Part shown: positions 19,666-59,260 of the stretch, piece after piece
Layout of the letters: every line of letters begins with the position of its first letter
Position numbering within the stretch: position 1 is the first letter of the stretch
NCBI GenBank assembly: GCA_014163555.1
Contig: JACJGO010000003.1
Span: 124,001 to 188,000, forward strand
Direction: 5' to 3'
DNA: 64,000 nucleotides
Source of the DNA: Flavisolibacter longurius
GTDB taxonomy: Bacteria > Bacteroidota > Bacteroidia > Chitinophagales > Chitinophagaceae
The notes under the pieces: generated by a model
What the model was told of the DNA's origin: nothing
The model's database searches: none
The model's input: only the letters and a program-made list of their open reading frames with translations
Made by a program: the position numbers and the translations under genes

Positions 19666-19739
19666 GCGTCAAACATGATACGTCAAACGTGAAACAGGGA
19701 ATCACTAATTCATAGGATTCCCTGTTTCGCATCTCACGT
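19666..19739. repeat. Phased inverted array A (7-bp period), VWA/dnaJ convergent gap
   Basis: Left arm: five in-phase heptamers at 19666-19700 (GCGTCAA, ACATGAT, ACGTCAA, ACGTGAA, ACAGGGA). Right arm: inverted heptamers at 19719-19739 (TCCCTGT, TTCGCAT, CTCACGT). The core is a 13-base perfect stem (19691-19703 with 19716-19728), 12-base loop. The array begins three bases after the VWA stop and ends in the dnaJ stop codon. It probably terminates both transcripts. Confidence 0.75.
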
Positions 19740-20896
19740 TAAGAGAACATCTCACGCATTTTATCAAAGAATGATTTTTCGTTTTTGTCCGGAGCCGGAT
19801 GGAAGTTGGGTGAATTACTCAATTTCTCCAACATTGCTTTTTCTTCGGAAGAAACATGTTGCGGTGTCCACACATTTACATGCACCAGTTGGTCTCCTTT
19901 TTCGTAGCTGTTTACGGCCGGAAAACCTTTCCCTTTGAGGCGAAAGATTTTACCGCTTTGCGTACCCGGCGGGATCTTGATCTTGGCACGCCCGTCGATG
20001 GTAGGCACTTCCAGGCTGGTTCCAAATACCGCGTCGGGGAAGGAAATATGCAGTTCAAACACAGCATTCAGGCCTTCGCGTTGCAATTCCTTATGGGCTT
20101 CTTCTTCTATCAGGATGATGAGGTCACCCGGCATGCCGCCACGTTCGCCTGCATTGCCTTTACCACTGATGTTTAATTGCATGCCTTCCTGCACACCGGC
20201 CGGGATATCAATGGTCACGGTTTCTTCGCCATACACACGGCCGTCGCCTTTACAGGCGCCGCATTTGGCGGTGATCTGCGTGCCTTCGCCATTACACGTC
20301 GGACAGGTCGTCACGGTTTGCATCTGGCCTAAAAACGTATTGGTTACACGCCGAACCTGGCCGCTGCCACCGCAGGTGCCGCAGGTTTGTACGCTGCCTT
20401 TGTCCTTTGCCCCGCTGCCGCTACAGGTACCGCAGGGAACGTATTTTTTAACCTTGATGTTTTTGGTAACGCCTTTGGCGATCTCCTCGAAGGTGAGCTT
20501 CAACTTGATACGCAGGTTGCTGCCCCGTACACCACGGGCACGCTGACCACCACCCCCACCACCTCTGCGGCCGCCACCGTTAAAGAAGGATCCGAAAATA
20601 TCTTCCCCGAAGATGTCGCCAAACTGGCTGAAGATATCTTCCATGTTTCCATGGCCGGCACGTCCGTTACCGCTTACACCGGCATGACCAAAGCGGTCGT
20701 ATTGCGAACGTTTGTCCGTATCGCTCAATACTTCGTAGGCTTCCGCCGCTTCCTTAAATTTTTCCTCGGCTGTTTTGTCTCCGGGGTTACGGTCGGGGTG
20801 ATATTGCATGGCAACCTTGCGGTACGCTTTTTTGATCTCGTCCGCGGGGGCGCCTTTGCTGACCCCTAATACTTCGTAATAATCTCTTTTTGACAT
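19739..20896 (-). CDS. dnaJ: Molecular chaperone DnaJ
   Basis: 385 residues with the full type I layout: J domain (HPD at residues 33-35), glycine-rich linker (about 95-125), four CxxCxGxG zinc repeats ([32 protein letters not shown], about 155-230) and the C-terminal substrate-binding domains. It delivers unfolded clients to DnaK and stimulates its ATPase. It lies 209 bases downstream of grpE on the same strand; dnaK is not in the window. The gap between the two genes holds repeat array B. Confidence 0.97.
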
Positions 20897-20904
20897 TTTC
20901 GATT

Positions 20905-21046
20905 TGAAAATTTGAAAATGTGAAAATTTGAAAATGCATTTTTAATTCAAACTCTCACTACTGGTTGATTGCTATTGTAAGGCAATTAGAAGCTGCGTCC
21001 GATGGCCTTTAACCATTTTACACATTTTCATATTTGCACATTTTCG
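20905..21046. repeat. Phased inverted array B (8-bp period) between grpE and dnaJ
   Basis: Left arm: four perfect tandem octamers TGAAAATT/TGAAAATG alternating at 20905-20936. Right arm: three inverted, degenerate octamers at 21023-21046 (CATTTTCA, TATTTGCA, CATTTTCG). The 86-base spacer has no gene. It lies in the grpE-dnaJ intergenic transcript. Confidence 0.75.
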
Positions 21047-21105
21047 CATTATTTTCTTTTAAAGAACTTCTTGATGGATTGAAAACCGCTGGTTTTCGCA
21101 TTCCT

Positions 21106-21669
21106 TCACCGGCCTACGACCACTTTGGCGTGGCGGATAATCTTTTCGCTTAGGTAATAACCTTTTTGCACTTCGGCCACCACTTTTCCCTGCATTTCTT
21201 CACCCGCATCAATTTCGGTTACCGCTTCGTGCAGGTCCGGGTCAAACGGAGTGCCGACAACGTTCATCGGCTTCAGCCCCCTGGCAGTAAGAATATTGCG
21301 AAACTTGCTGAACACCAGTTGGGTGCCTTCTTTTACCGTTGTTATGTCTTCAGTTTTGGCCATTTGCTCCAGGGCCCTGTCACTATCGTCCAACACGTCC
21401 AGCAGGTCGGTGATGATGTCTTTACCGGCTGTCTGAATCAGTTCCACCCGCTCTTTGGCCGTGCGGCGGCGAAAGTTATCAAACTCCGCTGCTTGGCGCA
21501 GGTACTTATCGTTGAGTTGTGCAATTTGTTCTTTCAGGGCTTCTGTTTCCGGTTCTTCCGTTACAGGCTCGTTTAAATGCTGGTTGCCATCAATGTTTTC
21601 ATCGGCGTTGATGTTAAAATCCTTGTTCTCCGTTTCCATGGGATTGTCCTGCATTTCCTGTTTGTTCAT
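21106..21669 (-). CDS. grpE: Nucleotide exchange factor GrpE
   Basis: 187 residues from the ATG at 21669; an upstream TTG would add two residues only. An acidic, disordered N-terminus (about 1-45) leads into the long dimerisation coiled coil (QLNDKYLRQAAEFDNFRRRTAKE) and the C-terminal beta domain with LHEAVTEI and GYYLSEKIIRHAKVVVG. GrpE releases ADP from DnaK. It is upstream of dnaJ on the same strand and has a promoter plus an operator-like dyad in front. Confidence 0.95.
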   Translation of the reverse strand: MNKQEMQDNPMETENKDFNINADENIDGNQHLNEPVTEEPETEALKEQIAQLNDKYLRQAAEFDNFRRRTAKERVELIQTAGKDIITDLLDVLDDSDRALEQMAKTEDITTVKEGTQLVFSKFRNILTARGLKPMNVVGTPFDPDLHEAVTEIDAGEEMQGKVVAEVQKGYYLSEKIIRHAKVVVGR

Positions 21670-21688
21670 GGTCAAAAAAATTAGAGTG

Positions 21689-21716
21689 CAAAGGTAAGTT
21701 TCAAGAACGTTGCCAA
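21689..21716 (-). promoter_or_regulatory. Promoter of grpE
   Basis: On the minus strand TTG (21716-21714) and TACCTTTG (21696-21689), a perfect -7 element with a rather short 17-base spacer, ending 19 bases before the ATG. Confidence 0.5.
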
Positions 21717-21726
21717 TGCCTAAGAA

Positions 21727-21743
21727 AAGGACAAAATGTCCTT
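21727..21743. promoter_or_regulatory. Operator-like dyad upstream of the grpE promoter
   Basis: Perfect seven-base inverted repeat AAGGACA-AAA-TGTCCTT, about 10 bases upstream of the -33 element of grpE. It is not CIRCE. The binding protein is unknown. Confidence 0.4.
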
Positions 21744-21766
21744 CCCAATACGTTATTAGGCCAGTG

Positions 21767-21910
21767 TGATAATTTGATAATGAATAGTAACTGCCAACTG
21801 GGCTGTGAGTGGCAGTTATCTTAATTTATCACTTAATAGGTGACATTCATTACTTGTAAAACGGTTCGTTTATTATCACATTATCAGATTATCGAATTGG
21901 CACATTGATG
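21767..21910. repeat. Phased inverted array C (8-bp period), grpE/methyltransferase divergent gap
   Basis: Left arm: TGATAATT, TGATAATG in tandem at 21767-21782. Right arm: inverted octamers TATTATCA, CATTATCA, GATTATCG at 21871-21894, then two weaker units up to 21910. The spacer is 88 bases and contains a further small hairpin, AACTGCCA/TGGCAGTT near 21789-21819. Confidence 0.65.
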
Positions 21911-21922
21911 TAGCTTGCGCCT

Positions 21923-23098
21923 ATGAAAAAAGTTCACCTGAAGCGGAAGATTGCCCAACGTATTGCCGGAGGGCATCCCTGGATTTTTGCCAACGAAGTG
22001 GAAAAAGTGGAAGGAGAACCTGTTGCCGGGGATACTGTGGAGGTTTATTTTTTCGACGGAAAGTTTGCGGGAAAGGGTTATTTCAACCCGCAATCGCAGA
22101 TCATGGTGCGCCTGCTGACCTGGGATAAAAAGACAGAAATCAACGAGGCTTTTTTCATTCAAAAAATAAAAGAATGCTGGGAGTATAAAAAGCAGATTGG
22201 TTACGCGGAAAACTGCCGCCTTGTCTTTGGCGAAGCCGACGGCCTGCCACAACTGATCATCGATAAGTTCAACGATTATTATGTTATCCAAACCTTGGCG
22301 CTGGGTATTGACGTATGGAAGCCGGCCCTGGTAAAAGCGCTCCAAACCGTTTTTAGCCCCAAAGGCATTTATGAACGAAACGACGTGCCGGTTCGGGAAC
22401 TGGAAGGCCTTCCGCAGCAAAAAGGTTTTTTGTCAGACCCCTTTGATACAAAAATTATCATCAATGAAAATGGCCTGAAATTTCATGTGGATTTGGAAGC
22501 AGGCCAAAAGACAGGCTATTTCCTCGACCAGCAGGACAATCGCCGGGCCATTCAGCACATTGTAAAAGGTGCCGATGTTCTGGGTGCATTCACCTATACC
22601 GGTACGTTCGAAATTCATGCTGCGCATTACGGCGCTAAGTCCGTGCTGGGAATTGATATTTCGGAAAATGCCGTTGCGCAGGCCAACCGGAATGCAGAGC
22701 TAAACGGCTTGCAAAACATCGTAAAATTTGAAACTGCCAATGCTTTTGATGTGCTGAAGCAGTGGGGCAAGGAAGAAGGGCGTCGCTACGATGTGGTGAT
22801 GCTGGATCCGCCGGCCTTCACCAAAAGCCGGGCAAATATTCAAAAAGCCATAACCGGTTACAAAGAAATCAACCTGCGCGGCATGAAGCTGGTGAAGCCG
22901 GGAGGTTTTTTGGTGACGTCAAGCTGTACCAACCTGGTGCAACCTGACCTGTTCCTGCAGATCATTGATATGGCTGCAAAAGATGCCCGCCGCAAACTTC
23001 GCCAGGTAACCTTCCAGGCCCAGTCATCCGATCACCCCATTATCTGGAACATGGAGAACACAAATTATTTGAAGTTTTTGATTGTGCAGGCGGTCTAA
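21923..23098 (+). CDS. Class I SAM-dependent rRNA methyltransferase (RlmI/COG1092 type)
   Basis: 391 residues. An N-terminal PUA-like RNA-binding domain (about 1-75; RIAGGHPWIFANEVEK) is followed by a bridging domain and a Rossmann methyltransferase domain. Motif I is VLGAFTYTGTFEIHAAHYGA (about 219-238) and motif IV LDPPAFTKSR (about 295-304). E. coli RlmI makes m5C1962 in 23S rRNA; whether this orthologue has the same site is inference. The gene is divergent from grpE and convergent with a T9SS-sorted protein. Confidence 0.88.
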   Translation: MKKVHLKRKIAQRIAGGHPWIFANEVEKVEGEPVAGDTVEVYFFDGKFAGKGYFNPQSQIMVRLLTWDKKTEINEAFFIQKIKECWEYKKQIGYAENCRLVFGEADGLPQLIIDKFNDYYVIQTLALGIDVWKPALVKALQTVFSPKGIYERNDVPVRELEGLPQQKGFLSDPFDTKIIINENGLKFHVDLEAGQKTGYFLDQQDNRRAIQHIVKGADVLGAFTYTGTFEIHAAHYGAKSVLGIDISENAVAQANRNAELNGLQNIVKFETANAFDVLKQWGKEEGRRYDVVMLDPPAFTKSRANIQKAITGYKEINLRGMKLVKPGGFLVTSSCTNLVQPDLFLQIIDMAAKDARRKLRQVTFQAQSSDHPIIWNMENTNYLKFLIVQAV

Positions 23099-23229
23099 TC
23101 TGCACCATGATTTGGGTGGGATAATGGGATTTATAAAATAAAAGAGTCGTTCTTATTGGAACGACTCTTTTTGTATAGAAAGAAATTAATCTTGTAAATC
23201 TTAAACATCCACCCAAATCATGGTGCAGA
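23099..23229. repeat. Inverted array G (21-base perfect arms, about 9-bp period) enclosing a terminator
   Basis: Arms 23099-23119 and 23209-23229 are perfect reverse complements of 21 bases. Their inner flanks continue as degenerate units about 9 bases long containing ATTT or AAAT. The left arm starts on the base after the methyltransferase stop codon and the right arm ends two bases before the stop codon of the convergent gene, so the structure fills the intergenic gap. Confidence 0.8.
23141..23175. terminator. Bidirectional intrinsic terminator
   Basis: Twelve-base perfect stem AAAGAGTCGTTC (23141-23152) / GAACGACTCTTT (23159-23170), six-base loop, with T residues on the 3' side of both strands. 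It lies between two convergent genes. Confidence 0.85.
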
Positions 23230-23230
23230 C

Positions 23231-23575
23231 TTATTTCGCTACCTGGAATTTACCTGATTCGACCATGCGGCCGCCTTTGTCGCGGAGCTGGTAAATGTAA
23301 ATACCGCGGCTGAATTCGGAGAGGTTGACACTCATACGCTCAGGAATGTTGACCTGCTCGTACGCTTTGCGGCCCAGAATAGCATTAAAAATCTGGAGCG
23401 AATATCCTTTTTCGTAATCTTTTTGAAAGTCGAAATTGATGACCGATGTTGCCGGGTTGGGATAAAAACGGACAATAGACGACTGAACACCCGTTAGCGG
23501 AAGCGGCCTTGTTTGAGCCTGTGAGGAAACGGTTGATACAAGATATATGGATAGTATAAGTAAAAGTCTCTTCAA
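23231..23575 (-). CDS. Minimal exported protein with a type IX secretion sorting domain
   Basis: 114 residues: signal peptide (LLLILSIYLVSTVSSQAQ), then directly a Por secretion C-terminal sorting domain (type A) covering about 35-114: RFYPNPATSVINFDF, LQIFNAILGRKAYEQ, LSEFSRGIYIYQLRDKGG and a GKFQV end. There is almost no cargo between signal and sorting domain, which is unusual because the domain normally rides on a large secreted protein. It may be a remnant of a longer protein or a genuine small surface protein. It is convergent with the methyltransferase gene. Confidence 0.85.
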   Translation of the reverse strand: MKRLLLILSIYLVSTVSSQAQTRPLPLTGVQSSIVRFYPNPATSVINFDFQKDYEKGYSLQIFNAILGRKAYEQVNIPERMSVNLSEFSRGIYIYQLRDKGGRMVESGKFQVAK

Positions 23576-23667
23576 ATAATTATCAGTTTAAATGTAACCA
23601 GGTACAATAATACTCCCTTTTCTTAAAAAAGCAAAGTACTTGCCGAAAAATCGCAATAAAATGTAAA

Positions 23668-24141
23668 CTACGTCGTTAAGCCTGCTAATATTTCCTTAAT
23701 GGCCATAAAATCGGGCTGTTCGCCTGCATTTTCAAGCACCTCTACATACTGAACAATTCCATCTTTATCAATGATGAATGCCGACCGCTTGGAAACACCC
23801 TGCATGCCAAAGCCCCATTCTTCATAAATCGAATCATAGGTGCGGGAAACCTCTTTATTAAAATCGCTGAGAAGGGTAAAATTCAGACCCTGTTCCTCCT
23901 TAAATTTTTTCAGGGAATGCAGGGAGTCTACAGAAATGCCAAACGGAACGGCGTTGAGGGATTCATAGAGTTTATAATTATCCCGAACGGAACACAGTTC
24001 GGCGGTGCAAACCGATGTAAAGGCCAGCGGGAAAAACAGCAGCAGAACCGTTTTCCCTTTTTGTGCTGATAAGGTAACGGGCTGTTTGTTGGTATCGTAT
24101 AAAGTGAAATCCGGTGCGGGTTGTCCAATCTGAATCGCCAT
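23668..24141 (-). CDS. Peroxiredoxin, Bcp/PrxQ-like
   Basis: 157 residues, thioredoxin fold. The peroxidatic cysteine is C45 in PLAFTSVC, and a second cysteine five residues later (C50, CTAELC) fits the resolving position of atypical PrxQ/Bcp enzymes. It reduces hydrogen peroxide and organic peroxides with thioredoxin. It lies downstream of oxyR on the same strand (60 bases between them), beside catalase, so it is probably in the OxyR regulon. Confidence 0.9.
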   Translation of the reverse strand: MAIQIGQPAPDFTLYDTNKQPVTLSAQKGKTVLLLFFPLAFTSVCTAELCSVRDNYKLYESLNAVPFGISVDSLHSLKKFKEEQGLNFTLLSDFNKEVSRTYDSIYEEWGFGMQGVSKRSAFIIDKDGIVQYVEVLENAGEQPDFMAIKEILAGLTT

Positions 24142-24183
24142 AGTATTGATTTATCGTAAAAACATTTCTTTCGCAGATAGGTT

Positions 24184-24191
24184 CAAAAATA
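24184..24191 (-). promoter_or_regulatory. -7 promoter element of the peroxiredoxin gene
   Basis: TATTTTTG on the minus strand is a perfect TAnnTTTG, 42 bases upstream of the ATG. No TTG at the expected distance. Confidence 0.4.
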
Positions 24192-24201
24192 GGTCCACGC
24201 T

Positions 24202-25140
24202 TCAGAAAATGGAAATAACATCCGTTTCCCCTTTTCCCTTCAGGTGTGGTTTTACCGCTTTTAAAATTTCTGTTTCCAGCAGGTGCAACAATCCTTTTTT
24301 CACAAAGTGCCGGTAGGTTACAAGACTGATCTCCCGTACAGGGACGGGTGGCTTAAAATGACGCAGCCGCTCCGTTTTTTCCCCGGAAAAACGAAGCGTA
24401 GCCAGGTTAGGTACAATGGTGATGCCCCCATTCATTTCCGTGATCTGAAGCAGGCTTTCAATGGATCCTGTTTCGTAATCGAGGTGGTGAACGATGGCCT
24501 GCTGCTTTTGAATTTCGCAAAGATTAAGAACCTGTGAGCGCAAACAATGCCCTTCTTCTAGGAGCCATAGTTTGCTGATATCAATGTCTTCCGCCAGGAT
24601 ATATTTTTTCTTCAGGCTTTTGTTCTCTTCCGAAACATACACTTTGAACTCTTCGTAAAAAAGATGCTTTTCCAAAAAACCTTTCTCTGACAGGGGCGTG
24701 GCCATAATGCCTACATCCAGCTTGTCGGATGCCAGCAGTTGCAGCAGGTGCTCGGTGGTTTGTTCAACAATCCGGAGTTTGATCGAAGAATATTTTTTTA
24801 AAAATTCGGTCAGGAAAAGAGGTAACAGGTAAGGCGCAAGCGTGGGGATAATACCAATCCGTAATTCGCCCTGCAGGCCGGTTTTGGCGGACTTGGATAG
24901 CTGTTTTAAAACACCGGTTTCCCGCAATACCACCCGGGCTTGTTCGATGATGGTTTTTCCTACCTCTGTAGGAACCACAGGTTGTTTGCTGCGGTCGAAA
25001 ATGACTACATCCAGTTCCTGTTCCAACTTCTTGATCATCATGCTCAGGGTTGCCTGGGTCACATAGCAATGGTCTGCCGCTTTTTCAAAATGCCGGTGCG
25101 TATCAACGGCCACAATGTATTCGAGTTGCTGCAAGTTCAT
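24202..25140 (-). CDS. oxyR: Peroxide-sensing LysR-family regulator OxyR
   Basis: 312 residues from the ATG at 25140 (an in-frame start at 25206 would put 22 non-conserved residues before the helix-turn-helix). The LysR winged helix-turn-helix is at about 1-60. The redox pair falls at C199 and C208 in HCLRSQVLNLC, the same numbers as in E. coli OxyR. Peroxide converts the pair to a disulfide that changes DNA contacts. The gene is divergent from catalase (165-base gap) and followed by peroxiredoxin, which supports the identification. Confidence 0.94.
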   Translation of the reverse strand: MNLQQLEYIVAVDTHRHFEKAADHCYVTQATLSMMIKKLEQELDVVIFDRSKQPVVPTEVGKTIIEQARVVLRETGVLKQLSKSAKTGLQGELRIGIIPTLAPYLLPLFLTEFLKKYSSIKLRIVEQTTEHLLQLLASDKLDVGIMATPLSEKGFLEKHLFYEEFKVYVSEENKSLKKKYILAEDIDISKLWLLEEGHCLRSQVLNLCEIQKQQAIVHHLDYETGSIESLLQITEMNGGITIVPNLATLRFSGEKTERLRHFKPPVPVREISLVTYRHFVKKGLLHLLETEILKAVKPHLKGKGETDVISIF

Positions 25141-25143
25141 GTT

Positions 25144-25158
25144 ATAGATGATATCGAT
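25144..25158. promoter_or_regulatory. Possible OxyR half-operator
   Basis: The 15-mer ATAGATGATATCGAT fits the OxyR half-site ATAGntnnnanCTAT with one mismatch in the second tetramer. It lies three bases upstream of the oxyR ATG. No good second half-site is seen. Confidence 0.3.
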
Positions 25159-25198
25159 AAATGTATAGAAATATTTGTTTTTGTCTATGAAAGGAATC

Positions 25199-25214
25199 GC
25201 TGACATTTGTCAGC
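25199..25214. promoter_or_regulatory. Dyad in the oxyR-katA intergenic region
   Basis: GCTGAC-ATTT-GTCAGC, a perfect six-base inverted repeat midway between the two divergent genes. Operator or hairpin; role unknown. Confidence 0.35.
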
Positions 25215-25305
25215 AACCGCCCGGGAGAACAACGCTAACTTTTGGCGCAAACTGTCCTCTTTATTGTACAAAATTTGATGGTAGAACTATTTAAAGATTA
25301 AACGT

Positions 25306-26919
25306 ATGATCAACGAACAAAACAACGGCAATGGCCAAAATAAAAATGGCCAGAACGGGGAACCTACCTTTCTAACCACAAGGCAGGGCCATCCCGTTTA
25401 TGACAATCAAAATTTGCGTACGGTTGGGAATCGTGGTCCGGCCACGCTGGAGAACTACCAGTTCCTTGAAAAAATGTCGCACTTCGACCGCGAACGGGTT
25501 CCGGAACGGGTGGTGCACGCCAGGGGAGCCGGCGCCCACGGGGTGTTTGAAGCCTATGGAACAGTGGGAGACGAGCCCATCTCGAAATATACAAGAGCCA
25601 AGCTTTTCCAGGAAAAAGGAAAGCAGACGCCGGTGTTTGTTCGTTTTTCTACCGTAGGTCACGGCGGTCACTCGCCGGAAACCCTGCGTGACCCCCGCGG
25701 TTTTGCAGTGAAGTTTTATACCGAAGACGGCAACTGGGACCTGGTGGGCAACAACCTGAAAATATTTTTTATTCGCGATGCGATCAAGTTTCCTGACCTG
25801 ATTCATTCGCAAAAGCCCGACCCGGTCACCAACATCCAGAGCGGTGAACGCATTTTTGATTTTATTGCCAACACACCAGAATCTACCCACATGGCTACCT
25901 TCCTGTTTTCGCCCTGGGGCATTCCTGCGAACTATCGCCAGATGCAGGGATCGGGTGTGAATACCTACAAATGGGTAAACAAAGACGGCCAGGCCGTGCT
26001 GGTAAAATACCACTGGGAGCCCCTGCAGGGCATCCATAACCTTACACAGGAGCAGGCATCGGAAATCCAGGGCAAGAATTTTAATCACGCCACGCAGGAT
26101 CTTTACGAAGCCATTGAGCGGGGTGATTTCCCGCAGTGGGAATTGTTTGTACAGATCATGGAAGATAACGATCACCCGGAACTGGATTTTGATCCGCTGG
26201 ACGATACCAAGCTTTGGCCGAAAGAGCAATTCCCCTGGTTGCCTGTGGGTAAAATGACCCTGAACCGCAACCCGGTAAACTATTTTGCCGAAGTAGAACT
26301 GGCCGCATTCGGTACGGGTGTACTGGTAGATGGACTGGATTTTTCTGACGATAAAATGCTACAAGGCCGCACGTTCTCGTACTCCGATACGCAGCGTTAC
26401 CGGATTGGTACCAACTACCTGCAACTCCCGATCAATGCGCCGCGTAACAAGGTGGCTACGAATCAGCGTGACGGCCAGATGGCTTACCACCAGGACCTGG
26501 TAGAAGGTGTGAACCCGCATGTAAACTATGAACCTTCGAGCCTTGGCGGATTAAAGGAAGCACCCAAAGCCGGCAAAGACTATGAGCCGCTTTACAATGC
26601 ACGCCTGGTACGCCAGAAGATCGATCGCACCAATGACTTTAAGCAAGCAGGTGAAACCTACCGCAATTTTGAAGACTGGGAGCGGGAAGACCTGATCAAC
26701 AACCTGGTGAACACATTGGCCAATGCAGCCCCGGTTATCCAGCAAAAGATGATCGAGAACTTTACAAAGGCTGATGAAGACTACGGCCGCCGTGTGGCGG
26801 AAGGCCTCAAGAACAAGGCAAAGAATGTTGGCGAAGTGGGTGCTCCTTCCGGTGCTACAAAAACCGAAGAAGGGGTGAAACAAGCCGAGCAGGTTTCAAA
26901 AGAAGCAAAACCGTATTAA
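25306..26919 (+). CDS. katA: Monofunctional haem catalase
   Basis: 537 residues. The distal histidine is H71 in the signature [20 protein letters not shown]; the catalytic asparagine is in [11 protein letters not shown] (about residue 150); the haem-ligand tyrosine is in [14 protein letters not shown] (about residue 351). It dismutates hydrogen peroxide to water and oxygen. The N-terminal 20 residues are rich in N, G and Q, and there is a charged C-terminal tail of about 30 residues rich in E and K. It is divergent from oxyR and is very probably activated by it. Confidence 0.96.
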
Positions 26920-26924
26920 CGGGT

Positions 26925-27045
26925 ATGACAGTTTGCGGATGACAGATGACAGCACAGAAAAGGATTTGGTTAGTAGTATAAGTAAGACAAAAGATGATTG
27001 TAAAACGAAAGTCTCTTCTGTCATCTGTCATCCCTCCTCTGTCAT
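26925..27045. repeat. Phased inverted array D (7-bp period), katA/porP convergent gap
   Basis: Left arm 26925-26952 reads as four heptamers: ATGACAG, TTTGCGG, ATGACAG, ATGACAG. Right arm 27018-27045 is the mirror: CTGTCAT, CTGTCAT, CCCTCCT, CTGTCAT. The order is symmetric even for the odd unit. Inner perfect arms are 16 bases. The spacer is 65 bases. The left arm starts five bases after the catalase stop and the right arm ends within the porP stop codon. Confidence 0.8.
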
Positions 27046-37319: not shown

Positions 37320-37354
37320 AGACTTTAGACTTTGAACTTAAAACTTTGAACTAA
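37320..37354. repeat. Single heptamer array upstream of the zinc-ribbon gene
   Basis: Five in-phase heptamers (AGACTTT, AGACTTT, GAACTTA, AAACTTT, GAACTAA) end three bases before the ATG at 37358. No inverted partner arm is visible. Confidence 0.5.
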
Positions 37355-37357
37355 AAC

Positions 37358-43691: not shown

Positions 43692-43766
43692 GTGTGGCTA
43701 TGAGCTTATAGCCGTGAGCTATAGGCATTTTGCTCGCAACTCAAAGCTCATGGCTCGCAGCTTACA
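43692..43766. repeat. Phased inverted array F (7-bp period), fabI/sigma convergent gap
   Basis: Left arm: five in-phase heptamers at 43692-43726 (GTGTGGC, TATGAGC, TTATAGC, CGTGAGC, TATAGGC). Right arm: five inverted heptamers at 43732-43766 (GCTCGCA, ACTCAAA, GCTCATG, GCTCGCA, GCTTACA). Only five bases separate the arms, giving one long imperfect hairpin whose right end covers the sigma-factor stop codon. Confidence 0.75.
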
Positions 43767-44343
43767 GCGAAATTTGCTTCTGCACCATCATCTTGCGCAA
43801 ATTAATCAACCCGTATCGCATTCTTCCCAAAGCTGTGTTAATGCTGCAATTGGTAATATGGGCGATCTCTTTAAAGCTCATATCGGCATAGTGGCGGAGG
43901 ATGATCACTTCCCGCTGGTCTTCTGGCAACTGGTCCAGCATATCCTTTACCCGGTTATGGCTTTGCTTTTTAATGAGCTTGTCCTCAGCGCTTTCCTCCG
44001 TAAAATTAAGGACCTCGAAAATATCCTGGTCTTCGCTGTTACGAATGGTGGGGGTACGTTTTACCTTCCGGAAATAATCTACACAAAGGTTGTGGGCAAT
44101 ACGCATGGCCCAGGGCAGAAATTTGCCTTCTTCGGTGTAGCGGCCGCCCTTGATAGTATCGATAACCCGGATAAAAACATCCTGGAAAATATCTTCGGCA
44201 AGATACTTGTCTTTTACTAAAAATAAGATTGAGGTATAGATTTTGTCTTTGTGACGCAATACCAATGTCTCGAATGCGTTTACATTACCAGTGTTGAAAA
44301 GATTAATCAATTCATGGTCGGACAGCTTGGACAAATAACTCAT
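43762..44343 (-). CDS. ECF-type RNA polymerase sigma factor
   Basis: 193 residues. Region 2 (AEDIFQDVFIRV ... PWAMRIAHNLCVDYFRK, about 45-100) and region 4 (LPEDQREVIILRHYADMSFKEIAHI ... ALGRMRYGLINLRK, about 135-185) are both complete. A short linker (about 100-135) joins them. No anti-sigma gene is adjacent, which is not rare for this conserved Bacteroidota type. The gene starts 250 bases from uvrA, divergently. A 12-base direct repeat GTGTAATGGATT (44361-44372 and 44444-44455) lies upstream. Confidence 0.93.
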   Translation of the reverse strand: MSYLSKLSDHELINLFNTGNVNAFETLVLRHKDKIYTSILFLVKDKYLAEDIFQDVFIRVIDTIKGGRYTEEGKFLPWAMRIAHNLCVDYFRKVKRTPTIRNSEDQDIFEVLNFTEESAEDKLIKKQSHNRVKDMLDQLPEDQREVIILRHYADMSFKEIAHITNCSINTALGRMRYGLINLRKMMVQKQISL

Positions 44344-48136: not shown

Positions 48137-48153
48137 CTAATCTATATATTTGA

Positions 48154-50761: not shown

Positions 50762-50856
50762 TTTTCTTCGTCCGAAGCAGGTTAGTTTGCCAGGAGGATG
50801 GCATCGGAAAGAAGGCGGAATGGTTGCAGTCCAAGAGTTGCAAGGGGGGAGACGAT

Positions 50857-51282: not shown

Positions 51283-51498
51283 AAAATTTATGGTTTAATG
51301 AATGAAATAGATCCGGCTTCCTTTCAAGATTTTTCTACGGCAGTGTAATGTTTTTGAACCGGGTAATAGGACGGATCACCCAATTGGTCAACCGTACAAT
51401 TGCTAAACATTTTCACGTCGGTAGATTTATTCGGAAAGTCATTTTGTTCGAAACCTGGCTGGCTATATCAACGTTGTGAGGAAGGATTATCTCTTCGC

Positions 51499-52757: not shown

Positions 52758-52823
52758 ACTTTCTGATTTAAAATTTGATGAAAAAGGGTATGCTTTGTGA
52801 GTGATTATGATACCGTGCGCTTC

Positions 52824-53225
52824 TCAAGCTGGATTGGTTACCGCTCTTGGATCAAAAAAGTTTTCTTGTGAAATTATCCTTCCTTCGTCATTTACAGTAA
52901 AGCGGTCCATTACCCGCAGCACACAGGCAGGCTGCCTGATATAACAGTGGAATTCAACGGTGACTGCGGTTTCTGTTTTATTGACAAATGTGTCCAGGAC
53001 CTCCGTTTTTTCAAGCAATTCGGGCAAGGGTGCCCACCATTGGGTTCGCAGGGTTTCTTTGCCTTTTAAGGGAACTTCCGAACCACCGGCAGTTAAAGGT
53101 GCCCGCAGTTCAACCGCATCATCATATGGAATGGCATCAAAATTTTTTTCACCAAGCCCTTTGATGACATAGTTACGGGCAATGGTGTGCAGGAGGCTTG
53201 CTTTGCTCATGGTTGTTGTTGACAT
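52824..53225 (-). CDS. NTF2-like protein (2)
   Basis: 133 residues. NTF2-like cone fold: helix LLHTIARNYVIKGLGEKNFDAIPY, strand VELRAPLTAGGSEVPLKGKETLRTQWW, helix LPELLEKTEVLDTFVN, strands AVTVEFHCYIRQPACVLRVMDRFTVNDEGRI. It is ten bases downstream of the exported lipocalin-like gene on the same strand, so the two are likely co-transcribed. Unknown function. Confidence 0.78.
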   Translation of the reverse strand: MSTTTMSKASLLHTIARNYVIKGLGEKNFDAIPYDDAVELRAPLTAGGSEVPLKGKETLRTQWWAPLPELLEKTEVLDTFVNKTETAVTVEFHCYIRQPACVLRVMDRFTVNDEGRIISQENFFDPRAVTNPA

Positions 53226-53235
53226 ATGATTGGTA

Positions 53236-54015
53236 TTATTGCAGAGGAGAATTGACTTTTTTCCACCACTCTTTCATCACACCTTGTTGCGAATCCTGGC
53301 GGATGGTTTCAGGGCCTTCTTTGGTAACACTGATTTCATATTCGGTACCTAATGCCAGGGGATAGGTAATGTATTCAATGCGTTCAATCAGTTTTTTGCC
53401 ATCATACTGGTAAGTGCCGCCACCAGCGCCAATAAATTTTTTGTTCTTCGTATCAAATTGAGCCCAGGCAAAGCGGGGATAAGCGTAGATTTTAACCTGA
53501 TCAAATGACTTGGCATCTTCTTCTTTGCCATCCTGTGTCCAGGTTACTTTTTGCAGTAGCCATGCACCTTCCAGCGATGCATTCTGTAATGGAAGATTGG
53601 TTTTGATTTTGGCAAACTCTTCGCGGATGGTATAGTCAGGATATTTCTCACTATCCATCTTTCCATTCTGAAAATAGTTGTCACCGGTTACGCTGTAATC
53701 AAACGTATAGGTATCACCAACGGCTGTACTGTCCCAGGAATAATAATCGAGTGTTTCTGTGTATTTGCCGTTAGCGGTTGTATAAGTACCACCGCCAACA
53801 CCATTGAATGGTTTTTCCGGGTTGCCAAAATAGGCTGCCATCCAGTACCCGTCTTTAAAGATTTTGATGACATGTTGCCTTCGTAAGTCTTGTTGTGTAA
53901 TGGTTTTGTCACCATGAAGTCCACCTGTGAACCGGAAAGCGCCGTCGAGCTTTTGTGCATCTGCAAAGGCAGAAAAAAGAAGAACTGTCAGCAGGGGAAA
54001 AAGGTTTTTTTTCAT
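53236..54015 (-). CDS. Exported protein with two lipocalin-like (DUF4488-like) repeats
   Basis: 259 residues from the ATG at 54015 (an upstream TTG adds three residues). Signal peptide FPLLTVLLFSAFADAQ. Two internal copies follow, about 25-140 and 145-258. Each has a GA[FW] start, a strand with VIKIFKDGYWMAAYF or VKIYAYPRFAWAQF, then GVGGGTYTTANGKY or GAGGGTYQYDGKKL, and a final strand before a short basic helix. The duplication is old, since identity between copies is modest. Unknown function; probably periplasmic. Confidence 0.78.
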   Translation of the reverse strand: MKKNLFPLLTVLLFSAFADAQKLDGAFRFTGGLHGDKTITQQDLRRQHVIKIFKDGYWMAAYFGNPEKPFNGVGGGTYTTANGKYTETLDYYSWDSTAVGDTYTFDYSVTGDNYFQNGKMDSEKYPDYTIREEFAKIKTNLPLQNASLEGAWLLQKVTWTQDGKEEDAKSFDQVKIYAYPRFAWAQFDTKNKKFIGAGGGTYQYDGKKLIERIEYITYPLALGTEYEISVTKEGPETIRQDSQQGVMKEWWKKVNSPLQ

Positions 54016-54101
54016 ACCAGCCAATTTTTTAACGAAGCTAATCCGGCCGGTACCGCTTTGTCTTGTAAATCTGCGACAATCGGTTGTAAAATTGCGTCAA
54101 A

Positions 54102-54938
54102 TTAGTGCAGCACTTGCGTTTTGGGTTTTTCCACAAGGTTAGCCAGCTCCCTGTTCTCCTGCAGGTATTGTTGCGGCGTTCGTCCGGTAAACTCCTCAAA
54201 ATCTTTGATGAAATGTGCCTGGTCGTAAAATGCGGCTTCGTAAAAAACTTCGGGCCAGGCCACTTTCTTTTTTCCAACAATCAAACTGCAGATATAACCT
54301 ATGCGCCGGATGCGGGCATAGTATTTCGGACTAAGGCCCACTTTCTGGAAAAAATGCCGTTCGAAGGTGCGGCGGCTCATGCAACTTTCCCGCAGCAGGT
54401 GTTGCACATGCAGCATGCCGTTTTTGTCCAGAATCGTTTGCACGGCCTGATCAATAAAATCAGGCGTCGGTTCATGGCGCTGGCAATGAAAAAGCAGAAA
54501 CGCCTCCATTTCCTTAGCTCTTTCCAAAGCTGATTTGGCTGTAAGGATGTTTTGCGTGAATTGCTTTACGTAGTCTTGTTGCAATACGGAAAAAAGGTTT
54601 ATTCTTTCTTCGGTAAAAACAAACCCATCGAGTCCAAAAAGGGAAGCCAGGGCTGCAGGTTTTAGCACAATACCGGCAATACCGATACTTTCCCTTAAAA
54701 AGAGTTTATACGAGTAGATGGACTGTCCGGCAATAAAGACAGCGGGAACGGAGAGGCGGTCGTATTTTTTGTTTTGGAGAAAATACGGTGCGCCATAATT
54801 GAAAACAATAGAACAAAAACCATTGGGTGGCGATTCCACCACCAGTTCCTCATCCAGCGGGCCTTCCGAATCCCAGACGAAATAACATTCAACGAATGGC
54901 GTAAGCGATTCAGTTGGTTTGAATTTCTGATAAAGCAT
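54102..54938 (-). CDS. AraC family transcriptional regulator
   Basis: 278 residues. The N-terminal domain (FKPTESLTPFVECYFVWDSEG, about 5-150) resembles the DUF6597 sensor of Bacteroidota AraC proteins. The C-terminal AraC HTH pair is at about 165-265: LLRESCMSRRTFERHFFQKVGLSPKYYARIRRI and WPEVFYEAAFYDQAHFIKDFEEFTGRTPQQYL. It sits inside the run of small minus-strand genes and is the only regulator there, so it may control them. Confidence 0.9.
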   Translation of the reverse strand: MLYQKFKPTESLTPFVECYFVWDSEGPLDEELVVESPPNGFCSIVFNYGAPYFLQNKKYDRLSVPAVFIAGQSIYSYKLFLRESIGIAGIVLKPAALASLFGLDGFVFTEERINLFSVLQQDYVKQFTQNILTAKSALERAKEMEAFLLFHCQRHEPTPDFIDQAVQTILDKNGMLHVQHLLRESCMSRRTFERHFFQKVGLSPKYYARIRRIGYICSLIVGKKKVAWPEVFYEAAFYDQAHFIKDFEEFTGRTPQQYLQENRELANLVEKPKTQVLH

Positions 54939-55033
54939 GATTTTGCTTTAAGGTCTGAACATTCGCTGCTTTCCCGGTCAAAACGTTTTGGTTGACAGGC
55001 AGGAAACCGGTGGTGGTGTTTTGCATCGCCAAC

Positions 55034-55465
55034 TCAGGAAGCTGCTGCCCCAGCCGTTTCCAATTCGGCCGTCTGCAAGGGTTGTTTGACTTTGACCGCA
55101 TCAAAAGCTTTGCTGACGATCAGCCACTGGCCTTCCATTTTCAGCAACTGGAAATAATTGACATAGTCTGTACCGTAACAATTTTCCTGTACCACTTCTA
55201 CACTGGCGGCCAGTCCGGCGATATCAATCTTGGTGATGGTGCAGCGATGTTGTTCGCCGGTAGTAGCCGGTGCTTCCTGCGCAGCTACATAGGCAAACAG
55301 TCCTTCAATTTCCACCATCATAACGCTATCGCTGTTGCAGCCATACATCATAGCCTTGGGATGAAAGGCTGACCGGAGAAGGGCAATGTCGCCATTGGTA
55401 ATGCCTTCTCCATACTTGTTAACGGTTTTGCGAACTGCTTCGAATTCAGCAATGGATGTACTCAT
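55034..55465 (-). CDS. NTF2-like protein (3), lumazine-binding-like
   Basis: 143 residues: VRKTVNKYGEGITNGDIALLRSAFHPKAMMYG, helix VEIEGLFAYVAAQE, strand HRCTITKIDIAGLAASVEVVQENCYGTDYVNYFQLLKMEGQWLIVSKAFDAV. This matches the putative lumazine-binding (PF12893-like) branch of the NTF2 fold. Situated directly upstream of araC on the same strand (95-base gap). The ligand is unknown. Confidence 0.83.
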   Translation of the reverse strand: MSTSIAEFEAVRKTVNKYGEGITNGDIALLRSAFHPKAMMYGCNSDSVMMVEIEGLFAYVAAQEAPATTGEQHRCTITKIDIAGLAASVEVVQENCYGTDYVNYFQLLKMEGQWLIVSKAFDAVKVKQPLQTAELETAGAAAS

Positions 55466-55597
55466 ATGTTCTGGTTTTAATAACTAAGGGAAATGGCCGG
55501 ATGGAGTTGTGGATAGGGGGAGATGTACTTAAAGCTACATTTCATATTTGACTTTTGCAAGGGCCTACGCAAAAATTCAAATCCCGGATTTATGTCC

Positions 55598-56242
55598 TCA
55601 ATAGTCGATCCATCCATCCGCATTGTAGGCTGCATCACTGGGATCCGTTGGATTAAAGTAGCCATCAAATGCAAATTCTCCGGTGGCGTGAACAAATTTG
55701 CCGGTGCCGCCCAGGATCAGGCCTTTTCCATTAAAACCAATTTTAGTAGCAGAGACGGGGAAGGTGCTGCCACCGCCGGCAATGGCCGTGGTGAAAATGG
55801 CTTCTCCCTTTTTGTTGTAGATAACATGATTGATGACATGGCCGTTTACGGTTTCCGGAATGCCGAGGGAAGAAATGGCTGAAGCCAGTTCGGTAAAATC
55901 TCCGGCAACGGGGTAAGAAGGAATATCAACCAGTGGAGCCGCTACGGATCCAAGTATAGCATCACCCGGCGGTTGAATATAAGCCAGTTGGTTAAAGTAG
56001 GTAATACATTTTCCAAGGTGTGTGGCATTACCGGTGCCGCCGCCCGGAAAATGTAAAATGCCCAGATAATTAACGCCCCCAATGGTTAAAGGCTGTGGCT
56101 GCGTTGGAGAAACGCGGTACCATGTGTCGGTGGTAACCTTAAACGCCCTTTGTTGCTGGCGAAGTTCTTTTTTACAGGAGACAAGGGCAAAGGCAAACAG
56201 ACCAATGATCCATACGTAGCGAAGTGCGAAAACCCGTTTCAT
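55598..56242 (-). CDS. Lipoprotein of unknown function
   Basis: 214 residues from the ATG at 56242 (an earlier in-frame start at 56308 is not conserved-looking). Lipobox FALVSC with cysteine near residue 23. The mature part has a glycine-rich beta pattern, ending in GKGLILGGTGKFVHATGEFAFDGYFNPTDPSDA, which resembles the last strands of allene-oxide-cyclase-like or heme-binding barrels. No firm family. First gene of the minus-strand accessory run. Confidence 0.7.
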   Translation of the reverse strand: MKRVFALRYVWIIGLFAFALVSCKKELRQQQRAFKVTTDTWYRVSPTQPQPLTIGGVNYLGILHFPGGGTGNATHLGKCITYFNQLAYIQPPGDAILGSVAAPLVDIPSYPVAGDFTELASAISSLGIPETVNGHVINHVIYNKKGEAIFTTAIAGGGSTFPVSATKIGFNGKGLILGGTGKFVHATGEFAFDGYFNPTDPSDAAYNADGWIDY

Positions 56243-56353
56243 AACGAAAATTTTTACGTGGAGGAATGCTGCGTTAGCGTTTGTTGTCGAGGGCAGGAAT
56301 AGTAACAAAAATAGCCGGTGCCCACTGGCGGTACAATACCAGAAATTGGGTAG

Positions 56354-56390
56354 AAAAGAAAAGCCGCTCTTGCGGAGCGGCTGAAAAAAC
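56354..56390 (-). terminator. Intrinsic terminator of glyA
   Basis: Stem AGCCGCTC (56362-56369) / GAGCGGCT (56375-56382), five-base loop; on the minus strand it is followed by TTTTCTTTT. Confidence 0.8.
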
Positions 56391-56405
56391 TAGGAGGAAA
56401 GATGA

Positions 56406-57683
56406 TTACAGCTCCGGGTACAGCGGGAAGCTGGCCATCAGTTCATGCACTTCATCTGCTGTCTTACTTACAACAGAAGCGTTATCAATATTCATCAATA
56501 CTTTATCAATCAGGTCTACCACCGTCTGCATGTGCTCTTCCTTCATGCCCCGTGTGGTAATAGCCGGTACTCCCACACGAATGCCCGATGTTACAAACGG
56601 GCTTTTATCATCATACGGCACTGCGTTTTTGTTCAGCGTAATGTGTGCCCTGTCCAGTGTTTCCTGCGCTTTTTTACCCGTAATGTTTTTATTGCGAAGG
56701 TCGATCAGCATTAAGTGGTTGTCGGTTCCGTTGCTGATCAGGTGATAATCTTTGGCTACAAAAGCTTTGGCCATGGCCTGCGCATTCAGTTGTACTTGTT
56801 TGGCATAGGTTGTAAAATCATCAGAAAGGATCTCGCCAAACGCGATGGCCTTGGCGGCAATCACATGCTCCAGCGGGCCACCTTGTGTACCGGGGAAAAC
56901 CGCCATGTCAATAAGGTTGCTCATCATACGAATGTTGCCCTTCATATCTTTTAATCCAAAGGGGTTTTCAAAATCTTTACCCATCAGGATAATGCCGCCA
57001 CGGGGTCCACGCAAAGTTTTGTGCGTGGTAGAGGTTACAAAATGGCAGTGTTCAAATGGCGAGGCCAGCAAACCTTTGGCAATCAGTCCTGCCGGGTGGG
57101 CAATATCGGCCATCACAAAAGCGCCAACTTCATCGGCTACTTTGCGAATACGGGCATAATCCCATTCGCGGCTATAGGCAGAGGCACCACAAATGATCAT
57201 CTGCGGTTTTTCGGTTCTTGCCTTTTCTTCCAGCTCTTCGTAATTAATCAAGCCGGTCTCTCTGTGTACGGTATAAGAAAGTGCCTGGTACAGTTTTCCG
57301 CTGAAGTTCACCGGCGAACCGTGGGTAAGGTGGCCGCCCATGCTCAGGTCAAGTCCCAGGATTTTATCACCGGGTTTTAGCACGGCCAGCATCAGGGCCG
57401 CGTTGGCCTGCGCACCGCTGTGGGGTTGTACGTTGGCGTATTCGCAGCCAAATATTTCTTTGATACGGTCAATGGCCAACTGCTCCACTTCATCCACAAA
57501 TTCGCAACCGCCGTAATAACGACGCCCCGGGTAACCCTCAGCGTATTTGTTGGTCATAACGTTGCCCATGGCCTGCATGACCTGCAGGGACGTAAAGTTT
57601 TCTGATGCGATCAGCTCAATGCCGTTGCGCTGGCGTTCCAGTTCTTTGCGAATGATGTCGAAGACAAGTGTATCTCTTTGCAT
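56406..57683 (-). CDS. glyA: Serine hydroxymethyltransferase
   Basis: 425 residues from the ATG at 57683 (the frame is open to 57794 but the extra 37 residues are non-conserved). It has [22 protein letters not shown], and the PLP lysine K222 in [15 protein letters not shown]. It converts serine plus tetrahydrofolate to glycine plus methylene-tetrahydrofolate in the cytoplasm. The best promoter lies about 200 bases upstream, giving a long leader that carries repeat array E. Confidence 0.97.
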
Positions 57684-57698
57684 GGTTATAGTTTTTTG

Positions 57699-57865
57699 CC
57701 GCAGAGAACAGGAGTAGTCGCGTGTTTTGCAGAGATTCTGTTTAACCCTGCTAATACTAAGCGGCTTTGTCTCGCTGTAGGTTGTACTTCGCAATGAACG
57801 TTTGAACTGGAGGCATCCGCTAAAATAGTATCTGCGAAAGCCTCCTTTTCTCTCGTTCTCTGCGG
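57699..57865. repeat. Inverted array E (about 9-bp period) in the glyA leader
   Basis: Perfect 11-base arms CCGCAGAGAAC (57699-57709) / GTTCTCTGCGG (57855-57865). The right arm continues outward as TTCCTGCGGTT, so its reverse complement reads AACCGCAGG, AACCGCAGA, GAACGAGAG in 9-base phase. The left arm has a second degenerate GCAGAGATT copy near 57729. The spacer is about 145 bases. Confidence 0.55.
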
Positions 57866-57885
57866 TTCCTGCGGTTAAAGTGGTG

Positions 57886-57918
57886 CAAAAATAAGCCTCG
57901 GCCCATAAGGAAAGCCAA
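57886..57918 (-). promoter_or_regulatory. Promoter of glyA
   Basis: On the minus strand TTG (57918-57916), 22-base spacer and TATTTTTG (57893-57886), a perfect -7 element. Confidence 0.5.
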
Positions 57919-57919
57919 G

Positions 57920-57951
57920 TTGTTTCGTTGAATGAAAAAGCTGTAATTTCG
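57920..57951 (+). promoter_or_regulatory. Promoter of the nucleotidyltransferase gene
   Basis: TTG at 57920-57922, 21-base spacer, TAATTTCG at 57944-57951 (one mismatch to TAnnTTTG). Its -33 element lies two bases from that of the divergent glyA promoter. Confidence 0.45.
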
Positions 57952-58028
57952 ACCGCTTAATTTATCACGGTTGTTTTGCGTAAGGTGAAGAAAGAAAAAA
58001 GAGGTTCGGTCAATCGAAATAAAAATCA

Positions 58029-59021
58029 ATGAAAGCTATAATTCCCGTAGCCGGTGCCGGTACAAAACTGCGTCCGCATACCTATACCCAGCCCAAGGCC
58101 TTGATTCCAATGGCGGGGAAAACGGTTCTCAGCATTATTGTTGATCAACTGCGAGAGGGTGGCCTGAATGAGTTTGTGTTTGTAGTGGGCTACCTTGGCG
58201 AAAAAATCCAGGACTACGTCAAAACAAATTATCCCGATATCACATCGCATTTTATTTTCCAGAACGATCGGCAGGGCATTGGCCATGCCATCCGTCTTAC
58301 CCGCAGCATTGTGGCCGGCGACGAGGCACTGATTGTACTGGGCGATACCATCTGCGATTTTGATGTAAAGGCGGTAATTGAAAGTGATGTCTCCATGATC
58401 GGCATTAAAAAAGTGGATGATCCGCGCAGCTTTGGCGTGGCCGAACTTTGTCACGATGCCGACGTATCGCATGTAGTGGAGAAGCCGCATATTCCGAAAA
58501 GCAATCTGGCCCTGGTAGGCGTTTACAAAATAAAGGAAACCGAAATGCTGTATGAATGCCTTGAGGCCAATATCAGCCAGGGCATTAAAACACATGGCGA
58601 GTTTAGTATCACCGATGCCATTGACTGCATGATCAAGAAGGGTGCAAATTTTAAGGCCTTTAAAGTGGCTGCCTGGTTCGACTGTGGCAAACGTGATACA
58701 CTGCTGGAATCCAACGCTACACTGCTCAAAAAATTCGGCGCAAGAACAGAACCCTCTTCTGATTACGAAAACACTGTCATTGTGCAGCCCGTCAGTATCG
58801 GTAAAGGCTGCGCCATCAAAAATTCCATCATCGGTCCCAACGTAACTATTGGTGACAATACCACCGTTGATTATTCCATCATTAAAAATTCCATCATCGG
58901 CGCTTTTTCTAATCTCTACGACATTGTGCTGGATGATTCCCTTATTGGCAGCGATACCTCCATCCGCGGCGAAACCCGTACACTAAACATCGGCGATAAT
59001 ACGGATATTGACCTGGGGTAA
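58029..59021 (+). CDS. Sugar-phosphate nucleotidyltransferase with hexapeptide-repeat tail
   Basis: 330 residues. The N-terminal Rossmann-like domain has the signature VAGAGTKLRPHTYTQPKALIPMAGK (lysine where most have arginine in GTRL), and VLGDTICDFD supplies the metal aspartate (about residue 105). From about 245 on there are left-handed beta-helix hexapeptide turns (VSIGKGCAI, NVTIGDNTTV, SIIGAFSNLYDI). It activates a sugar 1-phosphate with NTP for cell-surface glycan or nucleotide-sugar synthesis; the sugar is not defined. Single gene, divergent from glyA. Confidence 0.9.
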   Translation: MKAIIPVAGAGTKLRPHTYTQPKALIPMAGKTVLSIIVDQLREGGLNEFVFVVGYLGEKIQDYVKTNYPDITSHFIFQNDRQGIGHAIRLTRSIVAGDEALIVLGDTICDFDVKAVIESDVSMIGIKKVDDPRSFGVAELCHDADVSHVVEKPHIPKSNLALVGVYKIKETEMLYECLEANISQGIKTHGEFSITDAIDCMIKKGANFKAFKVAAWFDCGKRDTLLESNATLLKKFGARTEPSSDYENTVIVQPVSIGKGCAIKNSIIGPNVTIGDNTTVDYSIIKNSIIGAFSNLYDIVLDDSLIGSDTSIRGETRTLNIGDNTDIDLG

Positions 59022-59023
59022 CG

Positions 59024-59260
59024 GCCCCCTGCTCCCCGGTGGGGGAACTTAGGTCAAACTATCTTTATAATTCTTCTATTCTTTTCTTTGCAAAATCTTA
59101 TTGATTGGCAAGCAAATCTTTCTTCCCTGCATATGCAAAGTTGGGAAGAGGGCTGGCAATTACGGACTAGAAGCCTTTCCTGAAAAAACACCGCGTAAGC
59201 AATGACTGAAGAAAGAGCAGGCAACACAAATCTAAGTTCCCCCACCGGGGGACAGGGGGC
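59024..59260. repeat. Inverted repeat H with one arm inside a coding region
   Basis: Arms of 29 bases at 59024-59052 and 59232-59260 are reverse complements at 27 of 29 positions (a TC/CT swap). Each arm is itself C-run/G-run rich (CCCCCTG..CCCCGGTGGGGG). The left arm begins two bases after the nucleotidyltransferase stop. The right arm encodes residues 11-20 of the following flavoprotein. Confidence 0.85.

Follow-up and report, generated by a model that had tools for sequence, protein, structure and literature searches.

Phased inverted arrays of short words in the intergenic DNA of a Flavisolibacter-like genome

Introduction

How do intergenic sites of one genome come to share an architecture and yet be built from different words? 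The question is raised by a stretch of 64,000 nucleotides (the window) within contig C32 of a Flavisolibacter-like genome of 5.66 Mb. A preliminary description of the window listed eight intergenic loci, each with two inverted arms, and said that most arms are runs of in-phase direct repeats of 7, 8 or 9 bp. The analysis reported here indicates that five of these loci (1, 2, 3, 5 and 6) are members of a real class of arrays, present above chance. With a probability of about one half, the array loci represent several families of dispersed hairpin repeats, resembling repetitive extragenic palindromic (REP) sequences or miniature inverted-repeat transposable elements (MITEs), in which the units of each arm turn over by slippage. 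The nearest relatives for comparison are F. longurius (L059, G009; RlmI 96% identical), F. nicotianae (L060, G006) and G005, a genome in a single contig. Two gaps between genes recur below: gap a, the convergent gap before dnaJ, and gap c, between grpE and rlmI.

Results

The first requirement for a class of arrays is a periodicity that exceeds chance. In a 588-kb sample of the genome, comprising 65,271 intergenic bases (genes called by a simple open-reading-frame rule; array score at least 11), intergenic DNA contains 28 arrays of period 7, 19 of period 8 and 15 of period 14. Elsewhere in the range from 5 to 13, there are five arrays in all (1, 3 and 1 at periods 5, 6 and 10). Arrays occupy 50 gaps of the 588 kb, which would correspond to about 480 gaps in 5.66 Mb if this sample is typical. 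Shuffled intergenic sequence, which the preliminary description had named as a possible source of equal counts, yields at most 0.6 arrays per period. No period-9 array occurs in the 588 kb, which removes 9 bp as a class. When a stricter score is applied to periods 5–13 in a first sample of 464 kb, only period 7 (10 arrays) and period 8 (7 arrays) remain, with 0.4 in shuffles; at this score, 398 kb of coding DNA holds 17 arrays scattered over periods 5–13. The same periods lead in a comparison set of 76 loci, mostly from Chitinophagaceae (L063-L138): 91 arrays at period 7, 29 at period 8, 19 at period 14, 12 at period 11 and 14 at the remaining periods. Period-11 arrays of a CTATAACTTTA-like word lie upstream of rlmI in L068 and L118.

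The unit differs among the eight loci, as first described, but this is misleading at the scale of the genome, where words recur as families. The 62 arrays compared within the genome group into families that include CAATNGG, GGTGAGT, TGAGCTN, ACGTGAA, AATNNGAN (TGATAAT/TGAAAAT) and GTTCACNN. Identical words form 28 pairs, compared to 2.3 with permuted letters and 1.5 with random intergenic words; allowing one mismatch, the counts are 91, 23 and 26, respectively. Words are also shared with other genomes: of the 139 arrays of L063-L138, 87 carry a word that differs by at most one mismatch from a word of this genome, compared to 58 (standard deviation 6) for permuted words. Pattern scans of the whole genome find GATAATNNGATAAT 46 times, at 18 loci of GATAATNN, and GTTCACNNGTTCAC 76 times, at 39 loci of GTTCACNN; the reversed control is 0 in each case.

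Two readings of the words themselves were set aside. An exact 22-mer, AATGTGCAAATATGAAAATGTG, is found in 3 of 195 sampled genomes of the family (reversed control 0), and 9 of 207 loci, some of them overlapping, hold a related pattern; by a rough estimate, it is compatible with chance recombination of unit variants. The idea that arrays supply stop codons (TGA in all frames) came from reading the words, and GCAGTNN and similar words contain no stop.

Arrays of one word pair preferentially in inverted orientation. Among 414 arrays from 96 sequences (score at least 8, gaps up to 600 bp), pairs in the same gap with the same word (at most one mismatch) are inverted in 38 cases and direct in 1. Shuffling of gap labels within genomes gives 8.0 inverted and 4.2 direct pairs, with maxima of 13 and 9. 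Many arrays nevertheless appear one-armed: of 60 arrays examined in this genome, 40 have an inverted partner that scores above the direct one and 14 have one that scores below it, and in 31 the inverted partner exceeds all five shuffles.

Where both arms are present, their polarity runs one way for the words scanned. A genome-wide scan for both orientations within 160 bp identifies the word in the left arm and its complement in the right arm, at 7 of 7 two-armed loci for GATAAT and 10 of 10 for GTTCAC; the reverse order is seen in 0 of 17. A looser chain search for GATAAT assigns this order to 10 of 18 loci, with 7 one-armed and 1 mixed. Hairpins with identical words have the same polarity in 37 comparisons versus 2 across all genomes, and in 158 versus 28 at up to one mismatch, although these counts include orthologous pairs and are not independent; within this genome, the numbers are 5 and 0. 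Both disagreements among the 39 identical-word comparisons are between L103 and F. longurius. A general rule of a purine-rich left arm was also considered (72 versus 15 of 87 untied hairpins, with 8 ties). Because GTTCACNN keeps a pyrimidine-rich left arm in 10 of 10 loci, this pattern is read as a polarity belonging to each word.

The arms of a hairpin share a word but mostly do not share the order of its unit variants, and in most cases neither arm is a copy of the other. When real and shuffled unit orders are compared in 65 inverted pairs, the real order aligns better in 33 and the shuffled order in 27 (p 0.14). For inverted copies simulated with 5–25% divergence, the real order is the better one in 64–65 of 65 (64 of 65 at 25%); the simulation lacks unit turnover, such that an old copy scrambled by slippage could escape the test. 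Arms that do match in order are found in L072, L099, L091, L123 (arms adjoining) and L064 (86-bp loop). An apparent in-register copying of arms (arm identity 0.85 versus 0.73 for neighbouring units in 53 hairpins; 62 of 72) is withdrawn: those arms had been picked by the alignment itself, and arms taken from array detection give 19 versus 24 of 44 and 33 versus 27 of 65.

Dispersal is apparent in at least one family. Four loci (L043, L196, L197, L200) have ACGTSARA arms and a common interior of ~90 bp, and a nested GTTCACNN array is present in three of the four. Both word types also occur in L199 and, with less clarity, in L198. The ACGT/GTTCAC word family is a dispersed composite element, with the homologous copies, shared interior and terminal inverted repeats expected of a MITE. 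Unit order is shared between GTTCAC loci (p 0.001). The array element at C32:95625-95803 is matched by two loci of the same genome at 68–70% over ~145 bp, and by a third at 71% over 91 bp; these four were the loci aligned. In F. longurius, 40 further places in the genome match the gap-c hairpin, several across most of its length at 75–86%, with the proviso that many are arm-length and that same-word arrays match one another anyway. The nuoA-B hairpin of G005 has one further match, of 76 bp at 78%. Descent of all sites from one family, which the preliminary description had weighed, is not observed, even though one word family is a dispersed composite. Two further signals of shared order are not used here: that of GCAGTNN in F. 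longurius (61 versus 14, left-right across loci), whose matches were picked by similarity to one query and are not proof; and that of GATAAT across loci (117 versus 39), which was biased by degenerate end units and discarded, the count within loci being 5 versus 4.

Two other dispersed sequences were seen alongside the arrays. A second intergenic repeat, containing GTACAAGWGTGCGACGCAAC and no array, occupies C32 gaps 83658-83881, 91338-91624, 110628-110820, 196240-196474 and 206265-206482, and a related word occurs in relatives (L061, L103, L153, L161). At L053 10102-10136, ~32–35 bp of the genome match 11 places in F. longurius at 86–97%.

Comparison of orthologous gaps reveals that one gap can hold different words in related species. 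Gap c contains TGATAAT here, GCAGTNN in F. longurius, TGAAAAT in F. nicotianae, GCAGTTT in RYN287 and no word in F. ginsengisoli. The 420 bp before rlmI hold a period-7, -8 or -14 array at 16 of 62 loci (a subset of 80 loci), with many different words. Arrays also lie between cistrons of the nuo operon. Of 17 genomes, 12 have one in the nuoK-L spacer. In the nuoL-M gap, the arms are of the GGTGAGT type in this genome and F. longurius, and of the AAAATTA/AAGTCAAA type in G006, G005 and G003. In the genomes compared, spacers B-C and M-N contain no arrays, and the sole array of spacer I-J is that of G016, whose gap measures 69 bp as opposed to 7–18 bp.

Array presence was compared over gaps of at least 40 bp in both genomes. 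It agrees with G009 in 65 of 73 gaps (Fisher p 8e-9); of the 15 gaps with an array in both, 11 have the same word (up to two mismatches) and 4 a different one, and this agreement probably reflects mostly inherited arrays. Agreement with G006 extends to 31 of 43 gaps (7 with arrays in both: 5 same word, 2 different) and with G005 to 21 of 28 (6 in both: 3 same, 3 different), with Fisher p 0.035 each. As to whether arms change together, a comparison proposed for close strains, there are gaps in which the two arms differ jointly from one species to another.

The genomic context is as expected for something tolerated away from promoters. Among gaps of 60–700 bp, arrays are present in 15 of 60 convergent, 26 of 182 tandem and 5 of 60 divergent gaps. 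On the transcribed strand, mismatches between the arms of 64 co-directional hairpins comprise 58 G-U and 71 A-C; the counts are 17 and 24 in convergent gaps and 10 and 10 in divergent gaps. As G-U mismatches are not in excess, there is no sign of selection for an RNA hairpin. Both this result and the position between nuo cistrons speak against intrinsic terminators.

At the eight loci themselves, the preliminary description had the coordinates right. The best inverted-arm score exceeds all 30 dinucleotide shuffles at each locus, narrowly at locus 6, and arrays of period 7, 8 or 14 with a score of at least 8 are present at five of the eight. Positions below are in the window and unstranded unless marked. 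Locus 1 (19667..19739; score 16.5, shuffle maximum 11), in gap a, has period-7 (14 = 2x7) ACGTSARA-type arms at 19680-19707 and 19713-19739. In this gap F. longurius has a larger array of the locus-1 word type, and F. nicotianae and F. ginsengisoli have, by eye, plain terminator-like hairpins. Locus 2 (20902..21050; 20.5, maximum 12.5), in the dnaJ-grpE gap, consists of inverted period-8 TGAAAATK arrays at 20902-20935 and 21008-21050. Locus 3 (21760..21907; 16.5, maximum 11), in gap c, has period-8 TGATAATK arms at 21760-21790 and 21870-21901, with the array called at 21872-21907. Within it, at 21775-21831, a nested inverted repeat, TAACTGCCA..TGGCAGTTA, lies between the TGATAAT arms; this resembles the GCAGT word of relatives in the same gap and is possibly the relic of an earlier element. 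Locus 5 (26925..27045; 20, maximum 11.5), in the convergent gap after a catalase gene, has period-7 ATGACAG arms at 26925-26958 and 27012-27045; the word is kept in F. longurius and, by eye, degraded in F. nicotianae. Locus 6 (43697..43768), with period-7 TGAGCTN arms at 43697-43720 and 43745-43768, is borderline, its hairpin scoring 12 against a shuffle maximum of 11.5.

The remaining three loci are of other kinds. Locus 4 (23096..23233; 24.5, maximum 10) belongs to a different class, in which arms at 23096-23142 and 23186-23233 surround a terminator-like hairpin (23130-23152 / 23159-23181); no period-7, -8 or -14 array scores at least 8 between 23099 and 23229, and a similar structure occurs in 3 of 4 relatives examined. 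Locus 7 (57699..57865; 16.5, maximum 11.5) has inverted arms at 57699-57744 and 57821-57865 with a separate, GCAGAGAAC-like inverted word; it contains no period-7 or -8 array, and its one periodic tract, of period 9, spans just 17 bp. Locus 8 (59024..59260; 25.5, maximum 12) is a terminal-inverted-repeat element with ends CCCCCTG..GGGGGAACTTAG and no 7- or 8-bp array. Its relatives are found in the nuoL-M gap of three genomes (L160 16659-16795; L162; L163 9832-9963), and related ends also occur in one F. longurius gap. One further array, absent from the original list, lies at 37322..37356 (+) with period 7 (14); no second array is reported in its gap.

Discussion

Taken in aggregate, the description of one architecture built from different words, with no single family behind all sites, is borne out, and dispersed hairpin repeats with slippage turnover would account for much of it. 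The proposed sequence of events involves: entry of elements into gaps that tolerate them, or replacement of one element by another; replication slippage in steps of 7–8 nt, which would expand, contract and homogenise the units; and eventual decay of the element sequence. Because slippage would act on each arm separately, the arms would keep their word and lose a common unit order.

Several results weigh against this explanation. Unit order is not shared between GATAATNN (GATAAT) loci (p 0.53), and pooled same-word pairs between loci share none (115 versus 115). A whole-genome search with the GATAATNN locus-3 element returned only arm-length matches of 27–46 bp and no full copy, and a MITE-type shared interior was not seen for it; together with the GATAAT order, these matches are at odds with recent copy-and-paste. 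Inspection of gap alignments by eye showed no target-site duplication. Nor was a mobilising agent found: no transposase is linked to the arrays, and of the four Pfam Y1/IS200-type genes only that in L179 has a period-7 array, on one side only, which led to rejection of mobilisation by REP-associated tyrosine transposases (RAYTs). Dispersal with slippage also does not explain the 7/8-nt phase common to all families. As a separate observation, a large inverted structure, TGTTAACCCCAGC..GCTGGGGTTAGCA (about 1990-2150), comes after an IS200/RAYT-like gene in L180 and is perhaps the cognate repeat of that gene.

A doubtful, though possible, alternative is that each array is born locally and never disperses: a slippage tract would acquire an inverted copy by fold-back (quasi-palindrome template switching), and unit turnover would erase the order. 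The few hairpins that match unit by unit have the appearance expected of a recent inverted copy, no full copy of the locus-3 element is found in the genome, and a period of 7 agrees with Mrazek's idea of polymerase contacts, cited in PMC4679880 and PMC4692102. However, inverted copying of random tracts should yield both polarities, and 17 of 17 loci have one; words are reused far above expectation (28 versus 2.3 identical pairs); arms generally lack a shared order; and the ACGT/GTTCAC family has homologous interiors. Slippage with inverted copying, which the preliminary description offered as one explanation, is therefore not supported as the general mechanism, on the grounds of arm order, recurrence of words and polarity. 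It is improbable that selection at the RNA level maintains the hairpin as a terminator, mRNA stabiliser or insulator between cistrons, with the word as free filler. Consistent with this proposal, array presence correlates between species (p 0.035 in each comparison) even where words differ (2 of 7 in G006, 3 of 6 in G005), the nuoK-L spacer has an array in most of the genomes compared, and plain hairpins replace arrays in gap a of relatives. The absence of a wobble excess argues otherwise, as does the location of arrays between nuo cistrons, where terminators would be harmful, and recurring words are left unexplained.

The architecture could also be written by an enzyme. Unrecognised machinery guided by geometry and not by sequence, a variant of what was first envisaged, would place a 7/8-nt word at one side of an intergenic site and its complement at the other, with independent arms, one polarity per word and overwriting of the word in other lineages; this is very improbable. 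Slightly less credible again is the specific form in which a telomerase-like reverse transcriptase, or a similar repeat-writing activity, adds the word to both 3' ends at a break. One polarity per word, independent arms, recurrent words and the lack of full copies of the locus-3 element all fit such an activity, and telomerase-like addition has a bacterial precedent in DRT10, with 9-nt repeats in the system described (PMC12632851). Units with two free positions are nevertheless unlike the product of a fixed template, GTTCAC loci share their order, and the ACGT family shares interiors. Moreover, the genome contains a single PF00078 (RVT_1) match, in a 236-aa open frame and covering part of the domain, on which ground a telomerase-like enzyme was rejected as a candidate; its motifs, by eye, we take to be group II intron-like.

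Dispersed hairpin repeats with slippage turnover may be set beside several known systems. REP sequences and REPINs, with their RAYT transposases, are short dispersed extragenic palindromes with several families per genome. Array arms are not known among them, and in contrast to REP/RAYT systems, the arrays here have no link to the four Y1 transposase genes.

Closer parallels are heptamer repeats. Degenerate intergenic heptamers, GGGAATC or (GGGANTN)n in Xanthomonas and GGGGA(C/T)T in Nostoc, are described by Rehm et al. 2015 (PMC4692102), as are close inverted pairs of sites (70 cases in Xcc, 75 in Xac), under-representation between divergent genes, and a majority of repeats between the same genes in two species with extensive variation in length and sequence. 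Similarly, degenerate period-7 arrays are enriched in non-coding DNA here, joined by period 8; close inverted pairs run word-then-complement; and arrays are rarest between divergent genes. Those repeats have a G-rich word and were studied as G-quadruplexes, whereas some ten words recur here, most of which are not G-rich; one genome combines periods 7 and 8, and the word in a gap can be swapped. By word composition, the larger families include CAATNGG, AATNNGAN, GGTGAGT and GTTCACNN, with no dominant G-rich word. The P6b stem of the Nostoc trnL intron is built of heptamers, Class I TDNGATT and Class II NNTGAGT, and its class was repeatedly replaced while the stem stayed (PMC4476775). Class II resembles the GGTGAGT word; that system is one RNA locus with two words, in contrast to the many intergenic loci here. 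TAACTGA arrays, intergenic heptamers of Beggiatoaceae, Cyanobacteria and five Bacteroidetes, are nearly all direct (in BOGUAY, 169 sets and a single indirect repeat) and mostly just upstream of start codons (PMC4679880); they share the heptamer and the intergenic position with the arrays here, which differ in forming inverted pairs.

The statement that no formal description was known is thus wrong in part, given the inverted heptamer arrays of Xanthomonas (PMC4692102) and the heptamer stems of Nostoc trnL (PMC4476775), while searches of the open-access literature listed no account of inverted arrays with several words in Chitinophagaceae. The arrays turn scattered notes on heptamers into a measurable system: the recurring words are limited in number, each word scanned has a single polarity, the phase is 7/8 nt, and word swaps at orthologous gaps extend to nuo spacers. 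Some of the turnover of intergenic DNA in Chitinophagaceae may be due to them, and comparison of strains could now test why repeats of 7 nt are favoured in bacteria. As far as searched, the class is undescribed in this family, yet it is a variant of known heptamer repeats.

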